DNA of 42,769 nucleotides from positions 1-42,769 of the forward strand of contig CAIWCT010000219.1 in assembly GCA_903911225.1 (NCBI GenBank), written 5' to 3'. This stretch comes from an uncultured delta proteobacterium. GTDB lineage: Bacteria > Desulfobacterota > WTBG01 > CAIYCZ01 > CAIRTM01. Both the position numbers and the translations under genes were made by a program. Positions 39,999-41,725 of this stretch are shown piece by piece. The notes under the pieces were generated by a model that did not search any database, was not told where the DNA came from, and saw nothing but the letters and a program-made list of their open reading frames with translations. The first letter of the stretch is position 1; each line of letters starts with the position of its first letter.

Positions 39999-41165
39999 TC
40001 AATCTATCTTATGCCCGGCCGCTTCCTTAATAAGGTGCTGGCCGATCACGGTGCGCTGAATCTGGTTGGCGCCTTCATAGATCTGCAGAATCTTGGCATC
40101 GCGCATCATCTTCTCAACGGGATATTCGCGCATGTAGCCATAGCCGCCGAATATCTGCACGGCATCGGTTGTGACGCGCATGCACATATCGGTTGCAAAC
40201 AGCTTTGCCATGGAGGAGTACTTCGACATATCTTTTGCCCCTGAATCCGCATAGCGGGCTGCCTGATAGGTCAACGCGCGGGCGGCTTCAATTTCGGTTG
40301 CCATATTTGCCAGCATATGCTGCACGGCCTGATGAGAGATAATGGCCTTGCCGAATGTAACGCGCTCATAGGCATACTTGATCGACTCATTGAGAGCGCC
40401 GGTTGCAAGGCCGACTGCCTGAATTGCAATGCCTGAGCGCGTCATATCAAAAGTCCTCATGGCGACCATGAAGCCCATGCCTTCCCTGCCGAGCATTCTG
40501 TCTTTGGCTACCTTGCAATCTTCAAACACCAGCTCGCGGGTTGCCGATGCTCGAATGCCAAGCTTTTTTTCCTTCTTGCCGAAAGTAAACCCGGGCTGAT
40601 CCTTTTCAAGAATGAAAGCGCTTGCGCCGCGGGGGCCTTTTGAGGGATCGGTTTTGGCAACAACTGAATAAGTCTCTGCCTCACCGCCATTGGTGATCCA
40701 CTGCTTTACGCCATTAAGGATATAGAAGTCTCCATCCTTTTTAGCTGTCGAGCGAATATTAGCAGCATCGCTGCCGGCTCCGGACTCGGTGATGCCGAAT
40801 GCAGCAAGCTTTTTGCCTGCGGCGATATCGGGCAGGTACTTCAGCTTCTGCTCATGGCTGCCAAAAAGCAAAATCGGATAGGCGCCAAGACCGCTTGCAG
40901 CAAAACTGAGAGAAATGCCGATGCAATATTTGCTGAGTTCTTCAACAACAAGGATATTGTCGAAACTGCTAAAGCCCATCCCGCCATACTCTTCGGGGAT
41001 ATAAATACCGAACAGACCGGCATCAGCCAGCACCTTCATCACGCCCCAGGGAAACTCTTCCTTCTCATCAAGCTCGGCCCGCACGGGGATGATCTTTTCC
41101 CTGGCGATTTTGCGCGCCAGTTCTACCATTTGCTTTTGTGTTTCAGTTAATCCATAATCAAGCAT
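39999..41165 (-). CDS. Acyl-CoA dehydrogenase family protein
   Basis: FAD enzyme that forms an alpha,beta double bond in acyl thioesters. Seen: [86 protein letters not shown] and the catalytic base in [10 protein letters not shown] (E364). Length is 388 aa, fully standard; AAAGGTGG lies six bases before the ATG. It sits between fabH and acpP-fabF in place of the usual fabD and fabG, which raises the question whether it works on acyl-CoA or acyl-ACP. The specificity (short-chain, branched or medium) cannot be read from sequence. Confidence 0.95.
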
Positions 41166-41197
41166 ATTCTTCCACCTTTCTTGTCTCTTTGTAAATG

Positions 41198-41703
41198 CTC
41201 AGGGTTCAGGATTTAGGGTTCAGGGTTCAGGGAATCCACAAGGGCAGGCTCCATAGCCCTCGACATCCTCCCGCACCGACAAATTGGGCCAGCGGCGATC
41301 AGCCTCCGGTAACTGCTTCTCAAGGGTACGTTCCATGCCATTGAGCATCCGGATGCACTCCTGGTATCGAACTCGATACTCCTCGTAAGTCGTCTGAGCA
41401 TCATAACCTTTCAGATGTGCCATGTAAAGATGATGCACAGTCTCCGCGGCCTCTCCACGGCTTCGATTAACGCCTTCGATTTTGTTGCGAACATGTCGAT
41501 CATCGTACTTCTCGGCAAGTTGGGCAGGAGCGCTGTTTGATGAGCGTCTAGCCTGTGATCCCAACTCGTACTTCTCCTCGGGTGGCCAGCGATGGGTAAG
41601 TTCGCCTATCTCAATGTGCAGATGACAAAGCTTCTGATAGACTACCAAATCCTCCAACCGTCGATACGCTTCCAAATCTCTCTCCTGAACCCTGAACCCC
41701 CAG
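41198..41703. mobile_element. 506-bp cassette with inverted heptamer-repeat ends carrying a four-helix-bundle gene
   Basis: The left end CTCAGGGTTCAGG (41198-41210) matches the inverse of the right end CCTGAACCCCCAG (41691-41703) at 11 of 13 bases. On the left GGGTTCA occurs at 41202-41208, 41216-41222 and 41223-41229 with a degenerate copy between the first two; on the right TGAACCC occurs at 41686-41692 and 41693-41699. The only gene inside is the IVP-type one. No target-site duplication or transposase was seen, so it would need mobilising in trans. Confidence 0.5.
41220..41675 (-). CDS. Four-helix-bundle (23S rRNA IVP / S23-family) protein
   Basis: 151-aa helical protein of the family encoded by 23S rRNA intervening sequences and often found alone; related Avd proteins serve diversity-generating retroelements. 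Seen: LEDLVVYQKLCHLHIEI, then RWPPEEKYELGSQARRSS (the FPxxExyxLxxQxRRA signature, slightly changed), the LAEKYDD segment after it, and further amphipathic helices to about 135. The start is a TTG with AGGAG before it. The stop codon lies inside the left heptamer repeat. It interrupts fabH and the acyl-CoA dehydrogenase. The molecular role is unknown; no reverse transcriptase or variable repeat is in the window. Confidence 0.85.
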   Translation of the reverse strand: MEAYRRLEDLVVYQKLCHLHIEIGELTHRWPPEEKYELGSQARRSSNSAPAQLAEKYDDRHVRNKIEGVNRSRGEAAETVHHLYMAHLKGYDAQTTYEEYRVRYQECIRMLNGMERTLEKQLPEADRRWPNLSVREDVEGYGACPCGFPEP

Positions 41704-41725
41704 TACCTTAATACTTATCTAACGA

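Follow-up and report, generated by a model that had tools for sequence, protein, structure and literature searches.

How genes of the IVP/S23 family move, and how they came to lie in the 23S rRNA genes of some bacteria, is a decades-old question, and transposition is still one guess among several for their spread (PMC4990558). In the Coxiella 23S intervening sequence, tandem heptamers (GACAGAT) precede the start codon of S23p, and a 28-bp terminal stem is cut by RNase III (PMC4990558). Here we analyze an IVP gene in a 42,769-nucleotide stretch of DNA from an uncultured delta proteobacterium (hereafter the window). The 23S rRNA intervening sequences with S23/IVP genes (Coxiella, Leptospira) resemble the cassette in this window in their protein family and inverted terminal sequences, and in Coxiella also in the presence of heptamers; they lie in rRNA, however, whereas the window cassette lies between protein genes and its sister copies have outer ends and 8-bp duplications. 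A pentameric four-helix-bundle fold like that of IVP is also found in Avd of diversity-generating retroelements.

Insertion sequences and their dependents offer a second comparison. IS66-family elements have GTAA-starting ends and 8-bp duplications (PMC11946415), and the sister copies of the cassette are like them in both respects; the cassette differs in lacking a transposase, and the sole autonomous element that we found adds a DruA-like gene. With IS-mobilised cassettes and miniature inverted-repeat elements (MITEs), IVP cassettes with recognised outer ends share IS-matching ends, target duplications, a transposase-free passenger, and amplified internal-deletion derivatives. They differ from these in that the IVP passenger lies between inverted tandem arrays absent from the IS, and in that two IS families (IS66 and ISL3) are involved.

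An IVP cassette inserted in a fatty-acid gene cluster

The features of the locus, in window coordinates, are as follows.

39999..41165, minus strand: acyl-CoA dehydrogenase (ACAD) gene, downstream neighbor of the insertion
41191..41718, minus strand: whole inserted cassette, 528 bp; no counterpart at the fabH-ACAD junction in 9/9 matching relatives; ends placed by alignment with other copies
41191..41203, plus strand: outer inverted end, 3' of the IVP gene, GTAAATGCTCAGG, a degenerate GYAACTAYTCAGG with 2 mismatches to the motif
41202..41231, plus strand: 3'-side heptamer array, 4 GGGTTCA-type units, inward-reading
41220..41675, minus strand: IVP (four-helix-bundle) gene, 151 aa, TTG start; PF05635 (1.2e-21), TIGR02436
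41684..41699, minus strand: 5'-side heptamer array, 2 units, adjoining the ribosome site
41706..41718, minus strand: outer inverted end, 5' of the IVP gene, ATAAGTATTAAGG, degenerate with 3 mismatches; from alignment with copies C324, C70, C76, C440, and C399
41726..42706, minus strand: fabH, upstream neighbor of the insertion; adjoins the ACAD gene without the insertion in relatives

The IVP gene lies outside rRNA, between fabH and the ACAD gene, and all three are on the minus strand. Its product matched PF05635 over profile positions 1-106 of 106 (77.3 bits, profile search) and TIGR02436 at 75 bits, bearing out the first-pass annotation, in which an IVP/S23-family gene split a fatty-acid cluster. 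The IVP open reading frame alone fills 41191-41718, and there is no transposase inside the cassette. The 3'-side array consists of GGGTTCA, GGATTTA, GGGTTCA, and GGGTTCA followed by GG, and positions 41684-41699 are the exact inverse of 41216-41231 (16/16 bp), a closer match than the 11 of 13 originally claimed for these repeats. With up to 3 mismatches allowed, this 16-mer has 7 matches in the window compared to 0.2 expected, a number reached in 0 of 100 shuffles. The IVP stop codon (41220-41222) falls inside the left array and the ribosome site (AGGAG) overlaps the edge of the right one, as had also been described.

To the proposal that this is an inserted cassette, the joined flanks gave a direct answer: in a search of 10 relatives, an uninterrupted fabH-ACAD junction was recovered in nine, including a same-genus genome, at 69-80% identity, and the tenth had no match. 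The window IVP cassette, absent from all nine matching relatives, is an insertion. In seven of the nine the fabH-ACAD spacer is shorter than that of the window by 528 bp plus 5-11 bp, which is weak support for an 8-bp duplication because spacer length varies. The window copy itself has no recognisable target duplication, and both of its outer ends are degenerate. We also considered whether pre-existing heptamers had served as the insertion target, and rejected this, since identical units accompany related cassettes at unrelated sites, and the cassette is missing from the empty sites.

Sister copies place the ends outside the heptamers

Searching the cassette against its own genome recovered further, shortened copies of the same IVP gene, the ends of which run past the heptamers to GYAACTACTCAGGTAGC. 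In three of these copies the ends are near-intact and the 8-bp target duplications exact (C324, GATGAGCA; C70, TATTTCTT; C76, GTTTTTGT), and in a fourth (C353), as in the related elements C142 and C385, the flanking duplications match at 7/8 positions. The single internal deletion that C324, C70, and C76 have in common is characteristic of the amplification of a miniature element in trans. Wherever duplications are readable they abut the outer ends and not the arrays, and the sister copies thus led us to reject the heptamers as the true ends. The inverted arrays that had been taken for exact bounds are real, but their boundary role is not, as other copies put the ends at ~41191 and ~41718; the unit, first given as 506 bp, is 528 bp in the alignment with these copies.

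The genome also contains elements without an IVP gene. One of these MITEs (C204) has ends as in the sister copies and an exact duplication, CAATTTTT, and belongs to an IVP-free family of ~325 bp with GTAACTATTCAGGTAAC ends that is also found on C117, C370, C422 (two), C39, and C112 (loci L103, L100, L105, L107, L108, L111, and L099). REP-like palindromes (e.g., TAGGGGCGACC...GGTCGCCC) lie beside the heptamer sites L027, L017, L011, and L025.

GGGTTCA-type arrays are found at 51 sites in this genome compared to 0 in the reversed control, and about half of them have a recognisable element end nearby; sites where none was recognised include L009, L013, L017, and L020. These counts bear on the possibility that the heptamers form a genome-wide microsatellite and lie around the IVP gene by chance. 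The abundance of the arrays, and the half of the sites where no element end was recognised, would fit such a repeat, and to this extent the concern that GGGTTCA is a widespread repeat was justified; that it is unrelated to IVP genes did not hold up, as most IVP genes lie between arrays built of other units (137/187 vs 2/109 in ordinary short genes; see below). Furthermore, the cassette and its arrays are missing from the empty sites of relatives, and the same arrays recur at unrelated sites in deletion derivatives whose IVP gene is no longer intact. We consider the microsatellite explanation highly improbable.

GGGTTCA ends are not a property of all IVP genes in the genome, a candidate that we rejected: the ends of the other four differ from those of the window cassette. 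When three of the four were checked for their own flanking inverted repeats, two exceeded the shuffle level. The search for the same ends around other IVP genes of this genome, which the first-pass annotation had proposed, thus found none at these four.

Autonomous elements with matching ends

A search of 148 genomes from the phylum for the end motif GTAACTAYTCAGG found it in 31. The window's own genome has 15 copies, and three congeners belonging to another family have 149 (G054), 125 (G121), and 48; the reversed motif gave 0 in all of these. In several genomes, paired copies form MITEs of 45-330 bp, many with exact 8-bp duplications. In G054 and G121 (e.g., L410, L412, L428, and L430), the more than 120 copies per genome are mostly short MITEs, with AGGCACA-type arrays in those that were read.

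In one genome, G086, a GTAACTAYTCAGG-type pair 3.3 kb apart encloses an IS66 transposase (PF03050, 1.5e-31), a DruA-like protein, and a third open reading frame (L414:1170-4502; ends GTAACTATTCAGGGGTA). The DruA-like gene between the ends of this element matches PF14236 (Druantia), and no matching target duplication was found for the element. G086 also encodes an intact IVP cassette (L415) with ends GTAACTACTCAGG and GTAACTGCTCAGG and a duplication matching at 7/8 positions (CATCTTGC/CATCTTGT); in order, it comprises CATCTTGC, GTAACTACTCAGG, a GGTTCAC array, the IVP gene (intact, 130 aa, 103 bits), the inverted array, the end, and CATCTTGT. A MITE in a third genome (L424) holds a fragment 88% identical to the L415 IVP protein over 25 residues. 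The outer ends that match the autonomous IS66 element are near-intact in the sister copies and in L415, and degenerate in the window copy.

The trans-acting transposase that the first-pass annotation proposed to look for is thus present in a relative, G086, in an IS66 element with matching ends, but PF03050 was not found in the window's own assembly (G000), which is 85.5% complete and in 455 contigs. Multi-copy IS elements are often missing from assemblies as fragmented as this one. A first IS66 screen of the own genome and 18 relatives recovered one unrelated element; 17 of the 18 relatives had no IS66 transposase, and neither did the same-genus genome. Searches for terminal inverted repeats in plasmid records gave nothing meaningful.

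A second type of end is found in other IVP cassettes. In two of them (L172 and L182), the outer ends are GGTTCWTCTCCCAA and the 8-bp duplications are exact (AAATTAAT and ATATTTTT, respectively); these ends, together with those of L156 and L272, where the duplications match at 7/8 positions, correspond to GGTTCWTCTCCMAA. A congener of the L172/L182 genome, G121, encodes a 1344-bp ISL3 element whose ends match those of L172 and L182, with an exact duplication (ATAAATTT). Taken together, the IS66-type and ISL3-type cases indicate that IVP modules have travelled with two IS families that are unrelated to each other. Of 205 IVP loci, only 2, one of which is the degenerate window copy, have clear ends of IS66 type at both sides, and 4 have ISL3-type ends; for most of the 205 no IS-type outer end was recognised. 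A general scan for target duplications gave 10/120 at a score of at least 11 compared to 2 expected, a figure that is confounded by the tandem arrays.

For IVP cassettes with ends of these two types only, the sequence comparisons support their being non-autonomous elements moved in trans. The window feature itself is very probably a decayed non-autonomous DNA transposon, or mobile insertion cassette, that was mobilised in trans by IS66, with the arrays forming part of the IVP module. The complete layout would be an 8-bp duplication, a GYAACTAYTCAGG-type end, an inverted array, the IVP gene, an inverted array, an end, and the duplication. An IS66-family transposase supplied in trans would recognise the outer ends, and the cassette would have inserted between fabH and the ACAD gene along the direction of transcription. 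That IS66 moved the window copy itself we infer from the sister copies and from another genome. Neither autonomous element (the IS66 element L414 or the ISL3 element of G121) has arrays at its ends, and because of this the transposases probably do not need the arrays, which probably serve the IVP gene or its RNA.

Inverted tandem arrays across the IVP family

To examine arrays throughout the family, we took the highest-scoring inverted match between the 220-bp flanks on either side of each gene and counted a score of at least 13 as an array. Inverted tandem arrays were found at 137 of 187 IVP genes from Bacteria and some archaea compared to 2 of 109 ordinary short genes. Among 109 IVP loci of the phylum, 75% reach this score, compared to 4.6% when flanks are paired across loci and 0/27 mock genes; among 78 named loci elsewhere (Bacteroidota, Clostridia, Cyanobacteria, Planctomycetes, Proteobacteria, CPR bacteria, and Methanophagales archaea), 70.5% do, compared to 2.6% of cross-paired flanks and 2/146 mock genes, with p-values that are indicative only because the loci are not independent. 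Inverted tandem arrays with units of 7-9 bases are thus a general property of IVP genes across Bacteria. In the literature that we searched, IVP genes and tandem arrays were linked nowhere beyond the Coxiella heptamers, and rRNA signatures around sampled IVP loci were limited to isolated weak matches, none of them convincing.

The period is 7 in 171 of 244 arrays, 8 in 51, and 9 in 16, with 4-5 units per array being the most common. The unit differs from cassette to cassette: cassettes whose proteins are more than 70% identical mostly have units in common, while below 60% the agreement is at background level. Within a single cassette, the 5' unit agrees with the 3' unit in 69%. C makes up 13% of the inward strand, which is enriched in AG.

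Orientation of cassettes and differences at shared sites

Where the neighbors are co-directional, 144 of 149 IVP genes are oriented in sense (144:5), compared to 58 of 74 (58:16) short control genes; out of 185 cassettes overall, 144 are both inside a co-directional gene run and in sense. Transposition alone does not predict a strong sense bias, and one of this size requires selection for transcription or an RNA step.

Several sites differ among related genomes. The same IVP cassette (94% identical) occupies the same site in opposite orientation in two congeners (L145 and L149), and different cassettes with their arrays occupy the same site in congeners (L169/L179 vs L192; also L222, L247, and L225). 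Three different IVP cassettes (L170, L173, and L233) lie at an apparent gmd-fcl junction in three families, which suggests that this junction is an insertion hot spot.

Such patterns could also be produced if the arrays themselves functioned as the ends and the array-gene-array module were moved, perhaps via RNA, by the IVP protein and an unknown partner (e.g., a reverse transcriptase), with IS ends acquired only in a few lineages. Most IVP cassettes have arrays and no recognised IS ends, whole cassettes including their arrays differ at the same site (L179/L169 vs L192), one cassette is inverted between L145 and L149, and orientation is almost entirely in sense; moreover, the 5' and 3' units within a cassette match each other like those of close relatives, despite the fast change of units between cassettes. 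This explanation is at odds with the readable duplications, which abut the outer ends rather than the arrays, and with the spread of internally deleted copies that have no intact IVP gene; for array-only cassettes, neither a target duplication nor a partner gene was found. We therefore regard movement by the arrays as unlikely, and retain IS66-driven movement as the preferred reading of the window cassette.

Possible roles of the arrays

If the transposase can do without the arrays, their most likely function is as stems of paired RNA (or DNA), as repeated binding sites for a ring-shaped IVP oligomer, or as both. In one explanation, which is compatible with IS-driven movement, they are RNA processing stems: once transcribed as part of the host operon, the arrays would pair, and RNase III would free the IVP message and leave the host operon in two usable pieces. 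Consistent with this, the arrays are exact inverses, most cassettes (144/185) are in sense inside co-directional gene runs, the array stem of the window cassette appears in both the minimum-energy and the centroid fold, and the Coxiella intervening sequence, with its heptamers and 28-bp stem, is excised by RNase III (PMC4990558). The fold of the whole cassette is, however, only 1.5 sd better than shuffles, and a plain stem leaves the tandem period of 7-9 bases, the C-poor inward strand, and the AG enrichment unexplained. As a full account of the arrays, processing stems are a real possibility that falls somewhat short of probable.

The arrays could alternatively be repeated binding sites for an IVP ring, one unit of 7-9 nt per subunit, by which each IVP protein would recognise both ends of its own cassette or of its own transcript in a TRAP-like manner. 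Bearing on this are the prevalence of 4-5 units and the C-poor, AG-enriched inward strand, together with the homopentamer formed by a Xanthomonas relative of IVP (PMC4990558) and the five chains of structure 2gsc. We put this proposal forward speculatively, as one with perhaps a modest chance of being right. For the role of the arrays overall, we favor some combination of transcript stem and IVP binding sites.

Implications for the IVP family

The IVP cassette can now be defined physically, by its ends, its target duplications, and the empty sites, to which two lineages add an autonomous transposon that matches. Given the shared layout and the transposase-type ends in relatives, the spread of IVP genes is therefore now testable. 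The arrays could account for some of the short tandem repeats in intergenic regions that have lacked an explanation, and they point to a possible nucleic-acid target for the IVP family, whose function is not known. If the IVP-ring reading were true, IVP genes, including those in 23S rRNA genes, would be a bacteria-wide class of mobile modules that recognise themselves and move with borrowed IS transposases or other machinery.
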